A DNA stretch of 55,012 nucleotides, taken from NCBI RefSeq assembly GCF_004323185.1, contig NZ_NAPS01000001.1, positions 2,701,396-2,756,407 of the forward strand, in the 5' to 3' direction. Position 1 is the stretch's first letter. Each line of letters starts with the position of its first letter. This stretch comes from Westiellopsis prolifica IICB1. Lineage in GTDB: Bacteria > Cyanobacteriota > Cyanobacteriia > Cyanobacteriales > Nostocaceae. The notes beneath the pieces were generated by a model. It saw only the letters and a list, made by a program, of their open reading frames with translations, did not search any database and was not told where the DNA came from. The position numbers and the translations under genes were made by a program. Below, in pieces: positions 12,896-44,738 of the stretch.

Positions 12896-12946
12896 ATTTA
12901 GTGCGGCTTCACATTAAATTGGTATTAGTTAAAAACCTTAAAAAAC

Positions 12947-13025
12947 AAAAAGCGCTTGGGAGTGTTGCCGTGTTTCCACCCCAGGCGCTTTTCGTTTTAC
13001 ACTTGCTCCTCACACACAATTAAAA
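12947..13025. ncRNA. hairpin unit A with Yfr1-like core (tandem copy 1)
   Basis: A stem AAAAGCGCTTGGG / CCCAGGCGCTTTT (12947-12993) is followed on the plus strand by GCTCCTCACACACAATTAAAAG at 13005-13026. The 11-base core of the cyanobacterial sRNA Yfr1 is ACUCCUCACAC, and here the first base differs. The same block recurs about 148 bp downstream. On the minus strand the stem followed by T-runs could terminate purH. The assignment to a small RNA is an inference. Confidence 0.35.
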
Positions 13026-33677: not shown

Positions 33678-34679
33678 TTATGTAATTAGAGAAGCTTGAT
33701 CACGACGTGAAAAAATCCCCCTAAGAATGCCGTCATACAGGTTTACACGAGCTTCCAATATCCGCATGGCACCCGCAAACACCTTCTGCAAATCTTCTGA
33801 ATTACATACAAATGGCATTCCAGCAGCAAACCACCCCTCTGCGTGATCTCCATCAATTTCGCAATGGATCTCAAAAAACTTCACCAGTTCTTTGCTTAAT
33901 CCACGACGCAGTAGGTGAGCTAGAATTTGACTGTGCTGTAACGGCACTGACATTTCCAAAGCACCCATCCCACCAATGCCATAGTGTAGACCATCAGCAA
34001 ACCAACACAAATTCACCTGAGTGTTGAAAAAGTAACAGGTTTCTGGATTAATATCTTCTGGGTGTGCGCCACCAAAGTAATTTAATAGCGGTAAAAATAA
34101 ATTTGGATGCGCCTCTTGAAAATTACATCTACCCATTTCATCATAGATATTCCTAAACAGTTCTCCACGCATCTCAAAAGGCACATAAAGACTGTAAGCA
34201 GCAATGTGTAGATGAAAGTTTTGTGTATATACCCAGTGATTGGCGAGAAAATAACGTATTTCCTCATCACTTAGATCATCATTTTCAAATAATAAAAATA
34301 GAGGATGATAATTGACCCGATGATTTTGAATCTGCTGTTTGAGCCATGGCAAAAATAGTTGCGTGTTATTGATTTCTTTGGGCAATTGTTGTGGTGGTAA
34401 ATACTGCTGTTCAACCCTTTCAATTGTGTCACGTATTACCCATTCTTTAAAGGAACGAGATGTACCTAATCCGTAACCTTTTTGAAGTAAGCACTGGTTC
34501 AGTTCATATAACATGTACTGTAATTGTTGCCAATCAATACTATTTTTATTCTTGAAAGCTTGCTGGGCAAACTTTTCTAAGGTCTGTATGTGTTCAGGAA
34601 GATTTGCTATTTTTAAATCTTCTAATAATAAGGTTTGATTATTTCCAGATGCTTTATTTATTAATTGTGTAAAGCTCAT
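33678..34679 (-). CDS. haem-oxygenase-like diiron oxidase/oxygenase (iron-containing redox enzyme family)
   Basis: This 333-aa protein begins at the ATG 34679, chosen because AGGGG lies six bases upstream; an ATG at 34709 is also in frame. It is all-helical and shows the HDO pattern (numbering from 34709): E191 in YDEMG, H201 in EAHPNLF, E252 in GMGALEM, and H282, D286 and H289 in IHCEIDGDH. These are spaced as in characterised HDO enzymes (UndA, BesC, SznF central domain), which oxidise fatty acids, amino acids or N-containing groups using two irons and O2. The first ligand helix at about 150-168 (HWVYTQNFHLHIA) supplies further candidates. The gene overlaps the aldolase gene upstream. The substrate is unknown. 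Confidence 0.82.
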   Translation of the reverse strand: MSFTQLINKASGNNQTLLLEDLKIANLPEHIQTLEKFAQQAFKNKNSIDWQQLQYMLYELNQCLLQKGYGLGTSRSFKEWVIRDTIERVEQQYLPPQQLPKEINNTQLFLPWLKQQIQNHRVNYHPLFLLFENDDLSDEEIRYFLANHWVYTQNFHLHIAAYSLYVPFEMRGELFRNIYDEMGRCNFQEAHPNLFLPLLNYFGGAHPEDINPETCYFFNTQVNLCWFADGLHYGIGGMGALEMSVPLQHSQILAHLLRRGLSKELVKFFEIHCEIDGDHAEGWFAAGMPFVCNSEDLQKVFAGAMRILEARVNLYDGILRGIFSRRDQASLIT

Positions 34680-36063
34680 CATTTGCCCCTGATTTGTAAT
34701 TATGAGCAAGCAAATCTATCATTTGCTCTTCGGTAAAAAATGCACTATGCAATAGTTGATAATAGTGAGATATTGCATCTTGAACATCAATTGACAATTT
34801 TTGGCTGCGTGAATGCCATTCATTAACTATGAAAGAAAAAATTTCCTCAGCTTGTTCCTCATTGACATTAATCCCAAGACTTTGTAGTTTTTCCTGGTTA
34901 TTCTTCAAAAACCAACGAATACCATCCTTACCGCTACGAACACCGAAGCTTTTATTCAATTTAGAACCGATAAAACCAGGATCAATAACATCGTAGATAG
35001 TAGGTGCTTTTTTTAGCACTTCGTTCCGACTGCTGCTATAAATGCTATGAGTAATTACCCCTGTTATGGCTTGGGTTGGACACTCCATTAACCCATAGGT
35101 TTTTTCCAGCAAACGGCTAAGTCCATATAGCTTGTCGTAGTGAAAATCTGGTAAAGTAACGCCATATAAATCGTGCAATCCTAACGCTATCTCAGCTAAG
35201 GGTGGATGTCCAGCACGACTTGCAAAACCCCCTACTGAGACATCGACTCCTTTTAGTCCACAAGACAAACCCAACATTGCATTACCTGTGGCCATACCAA
35301 AATCATTATGGAAATGACCCCAGAAGGATATTTGCGGATATGCTTTCACCAGCGACGCAACGTAAACTTCGATTTGTTGTGGTAAGCATGTACCTGCTGT
35401 ATCGACTAATCTAATCTGTTTGATTCCGTGTTCAGCAGCAATATCAATTACTTTCCTCGCATGATTAATCTCAGCACGGAATATATCTAATAAACCTAAA
35501 ATGATACCTCCACCTTGGAACTGCTTGAGTGTAGGCAAAAAATCTTTAAACCAGTGAAGGTGTATTTGTTTTTGTTCTTCTAGAGTCAAAGCACTCCAAT
35601 TTTCACTATTCCAAACTGCTTGAGGTTCCCTAGCAAGAATTTTCCAGAAAATATGCTTAATCTGTTGATCAGACACAGTATGGACAGCAATAACCCACAC
35701 ATTTTTTAACGATTCTCCTAGTTCTTCATTCAGGAGTTGGAATGACCGACGTAGATCTTCTCCGACATAAGATAGAACAATGAACCGAGTTTTTTGAGAG
35801 ATTTCCCCTTGTTTTTGTAATTCCAGCAACCTCTTTAAAAGTTCAATGGTGTGAGGTACATAGGGTAAAAAACCGATGACTATGGAACGGACACCAATTT
35901 CTGAGATTTTTTGTCCAAGCTTGCATTTATCATCTAAGCTAGGTGAGATACTCGATCTTTCAGCACCCTCACGTAGAGTTTCATCCATCAGATCGATAGA
36001 GTTTTGAAAATTTAAGACAATCTGATCACTGAGAACTTGATTCGCTAGAGAAGTAGAAACCAT
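34654..36063 (-). CDS. DRE-TIM metallolyase (HMGL/isopropylmalate synthase-like)
   Basis: This 469-aa protein has a TIM-barrel HMGL-like domain. The metal Asp and the active-site Arg/Glu sit in LMDETLREGAERSS (D27, R31, E32), and the metal-binding HxH is H250-H252 in GHFHNDFGMATGNAM. The barrel end reads GGFASRAGHPPLAEI, where Claisen-condensing relatives usually carry a GxGER.GN motif, so the CoA-ester binding mode may differ. A C-terminal helical segment of about 150 residues follows and is not clearly the LeuA allosteric domain. It probably makes or cleaves a C-C bond on a 2-oxo acid. It lies 29 bp after the first TauD gene. Confidence 0.85.
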   Translation of the reverse strand: MVSTSLANQVLSDQIVLNFQNSIDLMDETLREGAERSSISPSLDDKCKLGQKISEIGVRSIVIGFLPYVPHTIELLKRLLELQKQGEISQKTRFIVLSYVGEDLRRSFQLLNEELGESLKNVWVIAVHTVSDQQIKHIFWKILAREPQAVWNSENWSALTLEEQKQIHLHWFKDFLPTLKQFQGGGIILGLLDIFRAEINHARKVIDIAAEHGIKQIRLVDTAGTCLPQQIEVYVASLVKAYPQISFWGHFHNDFGMATGNAMLGLSCGLKGVDVSVGGFASRAGHPPLAEIALGLHDLYGVTLPDFHYDKLYGLSRLLEKTYGLMECPTQAITGVITHSIYSSSRNEVLKKAPTIYDVIDPGFIGSKLNKSFGVRSGKDGIRWFLKNNQEKLQSLGINVNEEQAEEIFSFIVNEWHSRSQKLSIDVQDAISHYYQLLHSAFFTEEQMIDLLAHNYKSGANDELYTINK

Positions 36064-36092
36064 AATTCCTCGTTGTGGAGTATGCTAAGTTA

Positions 36093-37067
36093 TCACTTTT
36101 GCACTGCTTCCGATTCAAGTTTGATACCAATTTGAAGTGGACGAAGTCTTTTATGTCCTAACTCTAAATTTTTAGGAAGATATACGTTGTATGCTTGGAA
36201 GTGTTTCATCTCTGGGGGTGTGTCCATAAGGCGCAGTAGGTTATCTGTTGAGTCATCCCATATCCAAGCTTTATACAAAGTTCGAGGATGATTAATATCG
36301 TGCGAAGTAATTACATCGCGACCGTGCAACATCCGATGATTATCTACAATTATGATTTGACGTTCGGTGAGAAGATGATGTTTTTGGAACTTAGGATTAA
36401 GGAAATAGTTATCAATCACGTATTTCACTGAAGAATAGGCCCAAGGCTCGACAAACATCGTATCGTGACGAAAACGAACTCGCCATCTCCCGGATGGAAG
36501 CTGCTCGAAAAGAGGACAGTAATTTGAAAAGTATTTGGACTTGCAATAACTTAAAACTCTGGGTTGAGTAACAATTTTAAAATGTTCTGGTTCTTCCTGC
36601 CAAAGCCTTTGTAAAATTTCTTGACCATCGACTAAAAAGTTTGCTCCTCCTTGTTGTGCTGGTTGGACACACAGAAGTAAAAACAAGCTTGGTGGAGCAA
36701 TTCTTATAACTTTGCCATCGAGAAATGCGACACCATCAATGTGGGAAGCGTCTGTGTGTAGCCCAAGTTCATCTGTATATCCATAGTGATATTCACGAAA
36801 GTTATTCGAGTTGCTTTTATGCTCGCTTATTACATGTTCGGTTACTAGTTTATTAATCCCTGTATCATCGGCGTTAGGGTGATTTTTGATGTAACCAAAA
36901 TACAAAGAAATCTCTTCTAAGATAGATTGTGATGCATCCCAGGCTTGAATGATTGTAAATCCGTCTTTTTCAATTCGCTCATAGATTAAAGGAAGTTTAA
37001 CTTGAAAGTCATCCATACTATTGCAGTTGATGACATCAAGACCTTGGAGATCAGAAGTGGTGATCAT
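36093..37067 (-). CDS. TauD/TfdA-family Fe(II)/2-oxoglutarate dioxygenase (first in operon)
   Basis: This 324-aa oxygenase has an intact iron triad: H104-x-D106 (LGLHTDASH) and H248 (VDNHRMLHGRD). R262 (HPRTLYKAWIW) is placed to hold 2-oxoglutarate. The preceding EYHYGYTDELG stretch and the PSLFLLLCVQPAQQGG segment are typical of clavaminate-synthase-like members that act on small amino-acid-derived substrates. It heads the six-gene minus-strand operon; its promoter must lie in the 37068-37500 region, which also holds a MITE. The substrate cannot be assigned. Confidence 0.88.
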   Translation of the reverse strand: MITTSDLQGLDVINCNSMDDFQVKLPLIYERIEKDGFTIIQAWDASQSILEEISLYFGYIKNHPNADDTGINKLVTEHVISEHKSNSNNFREYHYGYTDELGLHTDASHIDGVAFLDGKVIRIAPPSLFLLLCVQPAQQGGANFLVDGQEILQRLWQEEPEHFKIVTQPRVLSYCKSKYFSNYCPLFEQLPSGRWRVRFRHDTMFVEPWAYSSVKYVIDNYFLNPKFQKHHLLTERQIIIVDNHRMLHGRDVITSHDINHPRTLYKAWIWDDSTDNLLRLMDTPPEMKHFQAYNVYLPKNLELGHKRLRPLQIGIKLESEAVQK

Positions 37068-40383: not shown

Positions 40384-41262
40384 CTATGGACTCTTGACTA
40401 TATCAACAAAATATAACTTTTCGTCTTGAGGAACTTCATGTTCGACAACAAAAACATGAGAGTGGAGATTAGCAATAATTTGTTTACCTTGCTGTGTCAG
40501 AGCTAGATAACGTAGTGCATCTTGGATATATGGGTAGACTCCATGCCAGTAGAATTTAGCATAATTCTTGCGTAAGTCAGCAGGTGTTTGGTAGCCCAAA
40601 ACCTTATTTATACCAGTTTCTTCAAATTCGTAAAATAAAGAAGTAATCTTTTTTAAGTAGCGGGGATCGCTTAATTGTCCAATTAAATCAGCAGCACGAA
40701 CCAAGCCTGCATAGTTATTTGTACATTGATGATCCTCAGCAGCAGGTACTGGAAAGCGAGTCAATTCAATATTGGTCTTAATAGCTTCAGAGTCTATTAA
40801 TTTGTGACCACCAAAGCGCTCATCAATAAAAAGTTTTGCTCTATCTACATGATAAGGAGTCAAACTAGCATCAGAAGCCCCAGAAGGGAGAGAAATCATT
40901 TTGTGATCTTTACCTGTAGCATACAAGGCTTTTTCCTCACGGTCTTCTCGACACACGCCTTTGACATAACCAATGTCATGACACAATAGGGAAATAATAA
41001 AGTGCAGCCAGTCTTCACTAGAAACACCTCCTTCTCGAATGTGTTTGCCGCGTAAGATTTCTTGTCCTACTAAAGTCACAAGAATTGAGTGTTCTACATT
41101 ATGATACAGGGCGTCACTGTTGGCAATGTTTTCTAAAGCCATGTTTCCCGCCCAAGCAATTATGTCTTGATAATCGGTTTTGAAGCAGCCGTAGGTACGA
41201 CGGTAGCCTTCTCGAATTTGTCCTACAAAAGCATCTATTAATATTTCTGTGGCATTGAACAT
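40384..41262 (-). CDS. HD-domain metal-dependent phosphohydrolase
   Basis: This 292-aa protein has the HD superfamily metal site. The first His is in LYHNVEHSILVTLVGQEIL (about 52-70), the HD pair in ISLLCHDIGYVKG (about 90-102), and later DRAKLFIDERFGG and RAADLIGQLSDPRYL (about 188-202, with the final Asp). Relatives are nucleotide or cyclic-nucleotide phosphodiesterases. The length is typical for a stand-alone member. Its last codons run into a GACTCTTGACTAT repeat. The substrate is unknown. Confidence 0.85.
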   Translation of the reverse strand: MFNATEILIDAFVGQIREGYRRTYGCFKTDYQDIIAWAGNMALENIANSDALYHNVEHSILVTLVGQEILRGKHIREGGVSSEDWLHFIISLLCHDIGYVKGVCREDREEKALYATGKDHKMISLPSGASDASLTPYHVDRAKLFIDERFGGHKLIDSEAIKTNIELTRFPVPAAEDHQCTNNYAGLVRAADLIGQLSDPRYLKKITSLFYEFEETGINKVLGYQTPADLRKNYAKFYWHGVYPYIQDALRYLALTQQGKQIIANLHSHVFVVEHEVPQDEKLYFVDIVKSP

Positions 41263-41924
41263 ACTAGTTACTCAGTCGGAAAACTAAAATTACTGATGCA
41301 TTTATACCAAAATAGCCAAACACCTTGGCGTGAATAAAATTAAGCATAATGCTCATGTCTTATTGTAGTGATGATCACAGATTGGACTGAAATAATATCA
41401 ATATAGTTACATCACAATCAAATCAAAATCAGTGATTGCTGCTGCTATTATGCATGGCACAATTAATGGAGTTGCTGTACTTCCTATTTGACTGATTAAG
41501 AGAGGAAACGATTTAACAGTTGGTATTGGTGGTTTGGCAGGATTTCTTGCGATCGCGATCGTAATTATATGTCTTTTCGCTTACGATTATTTTTTAGCTA
41601 AAGAGCCTTTAATGTCAAAGTGAAGGTTGTTTCGCTGTAAACTTTCAAGTCTGGTTCTGAAGCCGAGCATGGGGGGTGGCTCCGATGCTTAAGTAAATCT
41701 TAAGAATAAAAATCATAAATTTTATTTTTACTTAATAAGTGACATTTCAAAAATTATAGGTTTAGATATTATTTACAAATTTGAGGCAAAGTCACTAAGT
41801 ATTACTACGGAAGTGATGATTTTTGCCTTCAGAAGTTTTTCTGTATGAGGAAAAAACCAAGGTTTTATTCATAAATAAAACCTCATTTTTTGCTGCCAAA
41901 AAAATTAAATACGAATTCATGACG
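41263..41924. other. intergenic region upstream of the ethylene-forming-enzyme homologue
   Basis: It contains the CPBP remnant (41432-41623) and about 300 bp leading to the EFE-like gene. A TGACATTTC / TATAGG pair near 41741-41760 could be a weak promoter, but I cannot support it strongly. No NtcA-type GTA-N8-TAC site was seen. Confidence 0.4.
41432..41623 (+). pseudogene. CPBP-family intramembrane protease remnant (C-terminal)
   Basis: An in-frame GTG at 41432 opens a run of 63 codons encoding VIAAAIMHGTINGVAVLPI, then a TGA, then LIKRGNDLTVGIGGLAGFLA and a hydrophobic end LAIAIVIICLFAYDYFL. The HGTxN pattern followed by a membrane helix is how CPBP (Abi) proteases end. The internal TGA and the missing first 200 residues mark it as a dead fragment. 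Confidence 0.6.
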
Positions 41925-43007
41925 ATGACTAATTTGCAAACTTTCTACCTACCCAAATCCATTACTGCAACTCAATCCAATATTGACTTAGGACACCAAA
42001 TGATTCAGTCCTGGAGGACTGATGGAATCTTTCAAATAGCGACTAGCACAATACAGGATAGAAAAGTCCAGAATGCATTTGAAGCCAGTAGAAGGTTCTT
42101 TCGTATGCCGTTGGGGTTCAAATCCCAACGCATCAGTGATCTTACCTATAGCGGCTATATTGCTTCAGGCGAGGAAATCACAGCAGGAGAATCGGATTAT
42201 TCCGAGATATTTACTCTCTGCAAAGATGTTCCCTTAGATGATGTATGTGTACAAAAGCAATGGCCATGTCATGGACCAGTACCTTGGCCGAATCATGATT
42301 ACCAGCAAAACATGACAATATTCATGGATGAACTGGGCTTGATAGGTGAGAAGTTACTGAAACTGGTAGCTTTGGGCTTGGAAGTTGACATGAATACTTT
42401 TGATTTCACGCTCAATGGTTGGCACCACATGCGTGTCTTGCGATTCCCACCAATTTCAAAAAAATCGGCGAGGGGAATCGGCGCACACACTGATTATGGA
42501 CTATTGGTGATTGCAGCTCAGGATGATGCCGGTGGTTTGTATGTACGTCCTCCAGTGGAAGGAGAACAGAGAAACCGGAATTGGCGTTCAGATGAAAGCT
42601 CCGCAGGTATGTATGAAAATGAGGAACCCTGGACTTTTGTGAAGCCTGTACCAAATGTACTGACGGTATTTCCTGGTGATATCCTTCAGTTCATGACTAA
42701 TGGCTACCTACTCTCAACTCCACATAAAGTCAGGCTGAATACAAGAGAGCGATTTGCTTTAGCGTACTTTCATGAACCAAATTTCAACGCTTGTGTCCGT
42801 CCTCTGTCTAATCCATCAAGCAATGAATATATTCACTACGGAACGCACTTTACTAACATGTTCATGAGGTGTTATCCAGACCGAATCACGACACGGCGTA
42901 TTCAGGACGAAGACCGCTTATCAGTTTTGGCTCTTTTAAGGAATCAAGCTTTAGCTAATACCTACTCATTTCGTGAAGCTAGAAGCTACCAGTCAAGCCA
43001 GAGATAG
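41925..43007 (+). CDS. efe: ethylene-forming enzyme (2-oxoglutarate/L-arginine-dependent) homologue
   Basis: This 360-aa Fe(II)/2-oxoglutarate oxygenase begins MTNLQTFYLP; Pseudomonas syringae EFE begins MTNLQTFELP. Upstream in-frame starts exist at 41919 and 41823. From memory the two are well over half identical, in long blocks such as WPCHGPVPWPN, GIGAHTDYGLLVIAAQDD and FTNMFMRCYPDRITT. Functional residues align with a one-residue shift: iron ligands H188, D190 and H267, 2-oxoglutarate Arg R276, L-Arg-site E84, R170, Y191 and R315, and F282. In Pseudomonas, EFE turns 2-oxoglutarate into ethylene plus CO2 and also hydroxylates L-arginine. The gene is monocistronic, between a CPBP remnant and a REP copy, with cyanobacterial codon use. 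Confidence 0.93.
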   Translation: MTNLQTFYLPKSITATQSNIDLGHQMIQSWRTDGIFQIATSTIQDRKVQNAFEASRRFFRMPLGFKSQRISDLTYSGYIASGEEITAGESDYSEIFTLCKDVPLDDVCVQKQWPCHGPVPWPNHDYQQNMTIFMDELGLIGEKLLKLVALGLEVDMNTFDFTLNGWHHMRVLRFPPISKKSARGIGAHTDYGLLVIAAQDDAGGLYVRPPVEGEQRNRNWRSDESSAGMYENEEPWTFVKPVPNVLTVFPGDILQFMTNGYLLSTPHKVRLNTRERFALAYFHEPNFNACVRPLSNPSSNEYIHYGTHFTNMFMRCYPDRITTRRIQDEDRLSVLALLRNQALANTYSFREARSYQSSQR

Positions 43008-43064
43008 ATTTAAAGATGCGTTAACACCTTGGTCTACAGTCAGCGCTATTTCATTCTCATCCAG

Positions 43065-43118
43065 CCCGCCTCAGAATCAATTCTGAGGCTAGTAGCAAAA
43101 CTCGGTTAAAACCGACTG
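43065..43118. repeat. REP-like palindromic module (same family as 14813-15815)
   Basis: CCCGCCTCAGAATCAATTCTGAGG (palindrome at 43069-43088) is followed by GCTAGTAGCAAAACTCGGTTAAAACCGAC. These are the same modules that flank the transposase at 15 kb. It lies between the convergent EFE-like gene and cnfR. Confidence 0.8.
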
Positions 43119-43145
43119 TTGAGTCTATAATGCATCTTGCTAAAT

Positions 43146-44738
43146 TCAGGCCGAATTCAAACCCAACACCTTACGTAAAACTACTTGGTCTTCTAATTTA
43201 ACCTTCAAGCGACCTTTTTCAATATCGCGAATCCAACTTTGACTTTTACCTGCGAGTTTAGCTAAATCTCTTTGGGAGAGATTGAGGTTTTTGCGCGCCC
43301 GTAAAATTTGTTCGCCCAGTAAATCACCAGTCGTTTTGATTTTTCTTTTGTTTTTTGTGATTCGTTGCTTTTTTTCTGAGTCAACTGTTTGCTTCTCCCA
43401 GTCTGGTGGTAGGCTGAAAGATAAAATTCGGGCGTTCATCAACAAATTCCACTTACCACGGGGGCTGACGTCTGTCAAACGTGATGTACCGCTACCGTCA
43501 TTAATCCAAAATTCTAGTGCTTCGTCTGGGTCTTCGGGAATATCAACCAGTCTCGCCCACAAAGGTTGGATTGTTGGCGGGTAGGTGACTGGATCAAATT
43601 CTGATTTCATCCCGTGGTGATTGAGAACTTCTAAATCATGTTCAAAAGTCCGCAACAGGCGTTTGCGTTCTTCTCTTTGGCGACATGCTTGAGCAATTTT
43701 CTCCTCACCATAAGCGACGCGCATCAATGTCGGAACTGTAATCCGTTGAGCGGCACCCATTTTGGTTTTAAATAGTAACCACAGCATTAATCGTGCTGTA
43801 CCTTCGTGTTGTTGCCAAATACTCATAACTGTGGTTAATAGAGATTTTGGCAGGCTACCGTATTGATAAAACGCAGTTCGTTCTTTACATGCTTGTTTGT
43901 TGAGGAAATACTGCGCCCAGATTCCAGCTCGAATTTTGAAGGTTAAGCCAACAAGATATTTACATCCAAGATTATCTTCTTGGAAGTGGCGTTGAACTTG
44001 GACTAGTTCCCACAAACGGCTTGGTTGTAGAGAGAATCCTTTGAGCATACCTTGCTGGGGCCAGTCGATGGAAACGACAAGTGAGCAAGCTTGCTGAATT
44101 AAGTTGTTAATCAAAGTCAGCTTGACATTTTTGCTTAAGTCCTTGCGCTTTTCTAAGCCCAAGTATTTCTCAATTTGTCGTTCATCAATAGTAAACTCTT
44201 GTTCCCAAGGTCGGTCTTGGGTTGTTGCATAAGCTGCAAAAATCAGATGTAAACAAGCGGATCTGATATCTAGTGTCTCTATTGCTGCTAATTCTGTGAC
44301 AAGTTCACTGCTTTGGGGTGATTTGCTCAGATGAAATGCGATCGCCCCTTTTCCTTGATTGACTTGGCGACGATAGCACAAATTTCCTTGTTCATCTGTT
44401 TGCCAAGGTAATGATGTTCGTTGGGAGAGCAAATTGCAAGCTTCCCAAATCACAATTGCTGAAGCAAAGGGGTTACTCTTACCGTTGGAAAATAAATCTG
44501 GACTAGTTACCTCGCGTAAATCAACTTTGCATCTTCCCCTTTTGGCGTGCCAAGGTATGGGAGAATTGGTTGGGCAAGCTACCACACATTGTGGTTCAGG
44601 ATAGTAACCCTCACAGTTGTTACAAAGACAAGGGTCAATCCAATATTCATCGTTTTCAAGTTTAATAGCACCTGTAGGACATTGAGGACGGCAGTTGTCA
44701 CATCCAACGCAACTATTATTAGGTATTGTGTAAGGCAT
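43146..44738 (-). CDS. cnfR: nitrogenase transcriptional activator CnfR/PatB (ferredoxin-HTH fusion)
   Basis: This 530-aa protein fuses an N-terminal bacterial ferredoxin domain (two 4Fe-4S Cys sets: C10, C13, C16, C20 and C37, C39, C42, C51/C55) to a C-terminal HTH of XRE type (SQRDLAKLAGKSQSWIRDIE, about 487-506). About 400 residues lie between them. This is the CnfR (PatB) architecture and length. In cyanobacteria CnfR switches on nif genes under micro-oxic conditions, and PatB mutants affect heterocysts. Its divergent neighbour is fdxB, followed by cox genes, as I remember from Anabaena. Paralogues exist, so PatB versus CnfR2 cannot be settled here. Confidence 0.9.
   Translation of the reverse strand: MPYTIPNNSCVGCDNCRPQCPTGAIKLENDEYWIDPCLCNNCEGYYPEPQCVVACPTNSPIPWHAKRGRCKVDLREVTSPDLFSNGKSNPFASAIVIWEACNLLSQRTSLPWQTDEQGNLCYRRQVNQGKGAIAFHLSKSPQSSELVTELAAIETLDIRSACLHLIFAAYATTQDRPWEQEFTIDERQIEKYLGLEKRKDLSKNVKLTLINNLIQQACSLVVSIDWPQQGMLKGFSLQPSRLWELVQVQRHFQEDNLGCKYLVGLTFKIRAGIWAQYFLNKQACKERTAFYQYGSLPKSLLTTVMSIWQQHEGTARLMLWLLFKTKMGAAQRITVPTLMRVAYGEEKIAQACRQREERKRLLRTFEHDLEVLNHHGMKSEFDPVTYPPTIQPLWARLVDIPEDPDEALEFWINDGSGTSRLTDVSPRGKWNLLMNARILSFSLPPDWEKQTVDSEKKQRITKNKRKIKTTGDLLGEQILRARKNLNLSQRDLAKLAGKSQSWIRDIEKGRLKVKLEDQVVLRKVLGLNSA

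Follow-up and report, generated by a model that had tools for sequence, protein, structure and literature searches.

The gene efe, which lies in a stretch of 55,012 nucleotides from Westiellopsis prolifica IICB1 (the whole of this stretch is referred to here as the window), very probably encodes a functional ethylene-forming enzyme (EFE), with catalysis ascribed to it by analogy with active relatives. Our assessment draws on identity to the PK2 EFE of Pseudomonas (68%), on active-site agreement with that enzyme (26 of 29 positions) and with a Nostoc homologue (29 of 29), and on the phylogenetic tree, Foldseek comparisons, the Ka/Ks ratio and the published activity of cyanobacterial EFEs. Weighing against it are the substitution C280L, the report that cyanobacterial EFEs were the weakest in cells (PMC9101411), the failure of our searches to find guanidine genes in the genome, a Ka/Ks above that of neighboring genes and the lack of an assigned NCBIfam family. 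By analogy with the known enzymes, the protein would bind Fe(II) through H188, D190 and H267, with R276 and a hydrophobic pocket holding 2-oxoglutarate. L-arginine would sit beside 2-oxoglutarate, whose breakdown would yield ethylene and CO2; arginine would also undergo hydroxylation as a side reaction and would then fall apart into guanidine and pyrroline-5-carboxylate (P5C). The features of the locus are collected in Table 1.

Table 1. Features at and around efe, in window coordinates.
Feature	Position	Strand	Basis
efe, probable 2-oxoglutarate/Fe(II)/L-arginine-dependent ethylene-forming enzyme, 360 aa	41925..43007 (stop codon included)	+	translation, phmmer, residues, tree, fold
Upstream region common to the window and PCC 9431: promoter-like boxes, then predicted folded 5' leader	41691..41924	+	alignment, by eye
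Predicted leader hairpin 1; retained in PCC 9431, where one pair is changed on both sides	41780..41833	+	RNA folding, alignment
Leader hairpin 2 (predicted), followed by T run; terminator-like, A+T-rich	41861..41891	+	RNA folding, alignment
Stretch without counterpart in congeners G244 and G292	41402..43132		congener comparison
83-bp dispersed repeat with palindrome, near right edge of efe-bearing stretch	43040..43122		congener comparison
Left neighbor, Npun_R2479 family HD-domain metalloprotein	40384..41262	-	present in three congeners
Right neighbor, 4Fe-4S ferredoxin-like start and helix-turn-helix end	43146..44738	-	present in three congeners

Translation of efe gives a single intact open frame whose product begins with MTNLQTF, the start that the first-pass annotation had likened to that of P. 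syringae EFE; translation could alternatively begin at the in-frame ATG at 41919, six bases further upstream, or at a TTG at 41823. The same annotation described the protein as a close homologue of the Pseudomonas enzyme. This description is borne out by the pairwise identity to P. syringae PK2 EFE, by fold and tree, and by a phmmer comparison with all PDB chains, in which the top match is a PK2-type EFE (E 3e-162, residues 1-339). The Penicillium EFE (9eir) ranks second at 2.5e-122, after which the E-values fall sharply, to 2.4e-30 for the ancestral reconstruction 9ovh and 1.9e-23 for PaIPNS (6jyv). The resemblance to EFE is far beyond chance, and sequence could hardly make the identification more secure. 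ACC oxidase was considered as an alternative identity and rejected, the best ACC oxidase chain reaching 1.2e-9 in the same search. Identity as some other oxygenase was likewise rejected, given that the PDB matches, active-site residues, tree and fold are all those of EFE.

The active site was compared with PK2 EFE at 29 positions (PK2 numbering is used for these), 23 of them taken from the ligand-site list of PMC9101411 and six added in the present analysis. Differences from PK2 are confined to V85I, W247L and C280L, while the window protein equals the homologue of Nostoc sp. ATCC 43529 (L004) at every position and that of Scytonema sp. NIES-4073 (L005) at 28. The His-Asp-His triad for Fe(II) is present in the window protein as H188, D190 and H267. 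The 2-oxoglutarate arginine and its hydrophobic pocket (R277, F175, A279, A281, F283 and L206) are identical to PK2, and the L-arginine site (E84, V85, T86, D91, R171, Y192, R316 and C317) is identical save for V85I, an isoleucine also present in the assayed enzymes Efe_NS and Efe_RS (PMC9101411). Position 280, near the 2-oxoglutarate site, is leucine in the window protein as it is in L004 and L005. The nine residues that the first-pass annotation had named (E84, R170, H188, D190, Y191, H267, R276, F282 and R315 in window numbering) are all identical in PK2.

Structural prediction agrees with this picture. The AlphaFold2 model of the window protein, built from 21 aligned sequences, has a pLDDT of 87.9 and a pTM of 0.88, and its predicted fold is that of EFE. 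EFE chains fill the first 34 of the best 50 PDB matches listed by Foldseek (26 PK2-type and 8 Penicillium), with an rmsd to the model of 1.3-1.5 Å for 23 of the 26 PK2 matches listed; PaIPNS ranks after the EFE chains at 24% identity.

A scan of species genomes based on two seven-residue patterns, and for that reason not exhaustive (the published Microcoleus enzyme is absent from its list), returned 57 loci of the family, spread over cyanobacteria, actinobacteria, myxobacteria and proteobacteria. Cyanobacteria account for six of them, and the best-represented groups besides are Streptomyces (12), Lentzea (11), Pseudomonas (5), Myxococcus/Pyxidicoccus (4) and Frankia (3). The three Frankia genes (L009, L011 and L024) belong to a genus known for root-nodule symbionts. 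After exclusion of seven loci that were fragments or had interrupted frames, the tree comprised 56 rows, namely 50 loci, the window protein, PK2 and four distant homologues, with 21 of its 53 inner branches left open. The window protein joins that of Fischerella sp. PCC 9431 with support of 100/100, and both fall within a five-member cyanobacterial clade (97/92) together with two Nostoc copies and one Scytonema copy, L004 and L005 among them; the copies from Oculatella and Pleurocapsa lie outside it. This clade holds two published active enzymes, and the tree groups the window protein with EFEs that have been assayed while separating it from other oxygenases. Grouping with non-ethylene oxygenases, the outcome that the first-pass annotation had named as contrary to its reading, did not occur. 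Three of the four distant homologues (L002, L064 and L065) are placed outside all EFEs. The fourth, L063 from S. clavuligerus, sits among the EFE rows beside L054 in a join flagged as a possible long-branch artifact. Both L063 and L054, EFE relatives from Streptomyces at 40-50% identity, show altered letters at the iron site when aligned and may have another function.

Experimental knowledge of cyanobacterial EFEs comes from Cui et al. (2022), who purified the enzymes of Microcoleus asticus, Scytonema sp. NIES-4073 and Nostoc sp. ATCC 43529, monitored the conversion of 2-oxoglutarate in vitro and quantified the ethylene given off by E. coli cells (PMC9101411). All produced ethylene, and the in-cell yields of these three were the lowest among the six EFEs tested in E. 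coli (PMC9101411). L004 is very likely the assayed Efe_NS because it carries I85 and D158-A-L-T161, as that paper states for the enzyme (PMC9101411), while for L005 the strain name is the only link to Efe_SS. The window protein shares 79% identity with Efe_NS and 76% with Efe_SS; these two differ from it in having been expressed and found active (PMC9101411), and their gene neighborhoods within 8 kb are not shared with the window. The closest relative, the EFE of Fischerella sp. PCC 9431 (L003, NZ_KE650771.1), is 87-90% identical depending on the stretch compared, and its strain is listed under the same genus as the window genome. Among the structurally characterized enzymes, P. savastanoi/syringae PK2 EFE (PDB 5V2Y, 6VP4) shares the Fe, 2-oxoglutarate and L-arginine residues. 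Penicillium digitatum Pd1 EFE (PDB 9EIR, 9EIS) shares the EFE fold at 48-52% identity (Foldseek) and has Ile at position 85 like the window protein, but carries Phe 280 and Asn 317 (PMC12329707) where the window protein has Leu and Cys.

The first-pass annotation implied that an EFE in a cyanobacterium would be new. The novelty is modest, given that the activity of cyanobacterial EFEs was already reported in 2022 (PMC9101411). Native ethylene from an efe-carrying cyanobacterium did not appear among the literature matches listed (titles and abstract starts of open-licence papers), a search of the open-licence literature for EFE with Fischerella gave no paper titled on the window gene, and the string "cyanobacter" had no match in the 2023 EFE review by Hausinger (PMC10467617).

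The gene is rare. Counted at an E-value of 1e-30 and with the window genome included throughout, efe occurs in 2 of the 4 genomes available for the genus, in 5 of 192 of the family sample (one of these being a 38% homologue), in 1 of 195 of the order sample (the window genome itself) and in 2 of 386 of the phylum sample. A HetR domain is also present in the window genome. In the efe-less congeners G244 and G292, the same two flanking genes are adjacent, separated by 812 bp and 681 bp, respectively, and tblastn detected no efe remnant in the interval between them. This interval (L082 and L083) contains, as read from the sequence, a tandem repeat of ~20-bp units. The 83-bp repeat of Table 1 has many full or partial copies in the three congeners, the scoring having covered up to 40 candidates in each genome. 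The efe block of PCC 9431 (corresponding to window positions 41691-42965, 90% DNA identity) lies elsewhere in that genome, where the two genes that flank efe in the window are ~600 kb apart. The neighbors of the PCC 9431 efe occur at two locations in the window genome, both distant from the only efe there. Consequently, efe occupies different chromosomal sites with different neighbors in the two congeners.

An operon or conserved neighborhood for efe was rejected as well. No other window ORF of at least 70 aa occurs near efe across the six cyanobacterial loci, for which the flanks covered were 8 kb in five cases and 3.4 kb in all for L031. Individual loci gave a 44% protein match to a gene that lies 38 kb from efe in the window (L013) and weak receiver-domain matches to window proteins (L004 and L005).

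The age of the gene was approached through substitution rates. Between the window and PCC 9431, the Ks of efe is 0.284, compared with 0.237-0.304 for four neighbor genes and 0.112 for a fifth, which suggests that the gene is about as old as the split between the two strains. Ka/Ks for the same pair is 0.23 (0.05-0.18 in the five neighbor genes), well below 1, and 0.10-0.13 against the three Nostoc/Scytonema copies, the latter values being imprecise because Ks exceeds 1.1. These ratios suggest purifying selection. The argument in the first-pass annotation that cyanobacterial codon use speaks against a recent transfer did not hold, as efe has the poorest codon fit among the ten genes of the window that were compared (z -4.9; the next is -2.4), measured against its nine neighbors and not the whole genome. 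Codon fit and Ks point in opposite directions on recent transfer, and we gave Ks more weight. The window flanks slightly more closely resemble those of G244 and G292 (91-95%) than those in PCC 9431 (89.6%, long pieces), so the pattern of efe within the genus would need losses or a move. Possible histories are vertical inheritance followed by loss of the gene in G244 and G292, or transfer within the genus. We infer that efe is an accessory gene that entered cyanobacteria by transfer and moved at least once within the genus.

The region upstream of efe is shared with PCC 9431 at 84% DNA identity over 228 columns, a value that suggests more conservation than expected of unconstrained sites at a Ks of 0.28. 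Among the sequences compared, this stretch was found only in PCC 9431, the one exception being a 33-nt match in L057 that looks like chance. The promoter-like boxes GTGACA (41739-41744) and TAGATA (41763-41768), on the + strand, were read by eye; the promoter scan reported no + strand site in the upstream region, and the terminator scan did not report hairpin 2. Folding of the leader gave z-scores of -2.75 and -2.43, with two hairpins, the second followed by a U run, in both the window and PCC 9431. Of the 47 leader pairs predicted in the window, PCC 9431 breaks five and changes one on both sides. A folded leader RNA predicted from two sequences is a lead and not a result. The nitrogen-control motif GTAN8TAC is absent from 41201-43200, in which the looser GTN10AC occurs once, at 41629. 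At gathering score, an Rfam search of the window and L066 gave Cyano-1 only (12943-13019, - strand, in the window) and no family for the leader, and all 15 matches of the E-value search were below their gathering scores.

Three other readings of the gene or its role were weighed. That the protein is an isopenicillin-N-synthase-like oxygenase of other function, only resembling EFE, could be argued from its Pfam domains, which are the general 2OG-FeII_Oxy and DIOX_N alone, and from the lack of any family in NCBIfam; we consider it highly improbable. Residues separating PaIPNS from EFE are given in an ancestral-reconstruction study (PMC12329707), and at all such positions compared (175, 279, 281, 84, 86, 313, 314, 316 and 317) the window protein carries the EFE letter. 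Where PaIPNS-type proteins have Tyr, Ser and Pro at 175, 279 and 281 and are without an EFE-like L-arginine site, the window protein has Phe, Ala and Ala and retains that site. PaIPNS (PDB 6JYV) shares the superfamily fold but differs in its L-arginine site and hydrophobic 2-oxoglutarate pocket (PMC12329707), its match is far weaker than that of EFE, and both tree and fold place the window protein with EFE. The second reading accepts a functional EFE and holds that its role in vivo is mainly that of an L-arginine C5-hydroxylase yielding P5C and guanidine, with ethylene a by-product without a role. We find this doubtful, even though EFE runs both reactions, active reconstructed ancestors do so at near-uniform ratios (PMC12329707), and no neighbor in the other efe carriers examined points to ethylene use. 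The ethylene/P5C ratio is ~3.5 in PK2 EFE, and ethylene exceeds P5C in the active ancestors quoted as well (PMC12329707); moreover, the 2-oxoglutarate-pocket residues, to which ethylene formation has been linked (PMC12329707), are kept in the window protein. Searches of the window genome also found no dedicated guanidine-handling gene: neither a riboswitch of the Guanidine-I class (150 of 165 candidates scored) nor a clear guanidinase was found, and the sole arginase-family protein scores 142.3 bits against an NCBIfam agmatinase cut-off of 174.3, its substrate being uncertain.

The third reading, also compatible with a functional EFE, is that the ethylene acts as a gaseous signal of autocrine or paracrine type, perceived by ETR1-type proteins that the cell itself encodes. 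The window genome encodes three ethylene-receptor-type proteins with an ETR1_N domain: a histidine kinase (L060), a hybrid kinase with a receiver (L061) and a PAS-GAF-GGDEF protein with a diguanylate cyclase domain (L062). The Asp, Tyr, Pro, Cys and His positions are conserved in two of the three (L060 and L061); the roles of these residues, with Cys and His as copper ligands, we take from work on ETR1. Synechocystis is reported to respond to ethylene at concentrations down to 1 nL/L (PMC6682694). Ethylene made by the cell could possibly be sensed. Nevertheless, ETR1_N is present in 146 of 190 genomes of the order sample and efe in one of 195, so their co-occurrence is expected by chance and the domain in the window genome constitutes background. 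No receptor gene lies beside efe, and the nearest, that of L062 at ~68 kb, has lost the conserved His. Synechocystis itself has a receptor and is described as producing no ethylene unless methionine is added, the gas being discussed as externally sourced (PMC6508509). We regard this signaling role as unlikely. A more elaborate proposal, a self-contained circuit in which 2-oxoglutarate (the nitrogen-status signal) and arginine would give rise to ethylene sensed by the cell's own ETR1-type kinases, with the folded leader perhaps setting efe expression and the gas informing filaments or plants of nitrogen and carbon status, is speculative and quite improbable.

Under the preferred reading of efe as the gene of a functional EFE, the combination of an EFE and receptor-type proteins in the window genome with two congeners that do not carry efe makes the use of its own ethylene by a cyanobacterium testable. 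In biotechnology, the by-product guanidine destabilizes engineered Synechococcus (PMC8390497), and how EFE is tolerated in a photosynthetic cell may be learned from a native carrier. Elsewhere in the window, at 34654-37067, adjacent genes encode an HMGL-like enzyme and a TauD-type oxygenase; the best NCBIfam matches of the former are isopropylmalate/homocitrate synthases, at scores well under the cut-offs.
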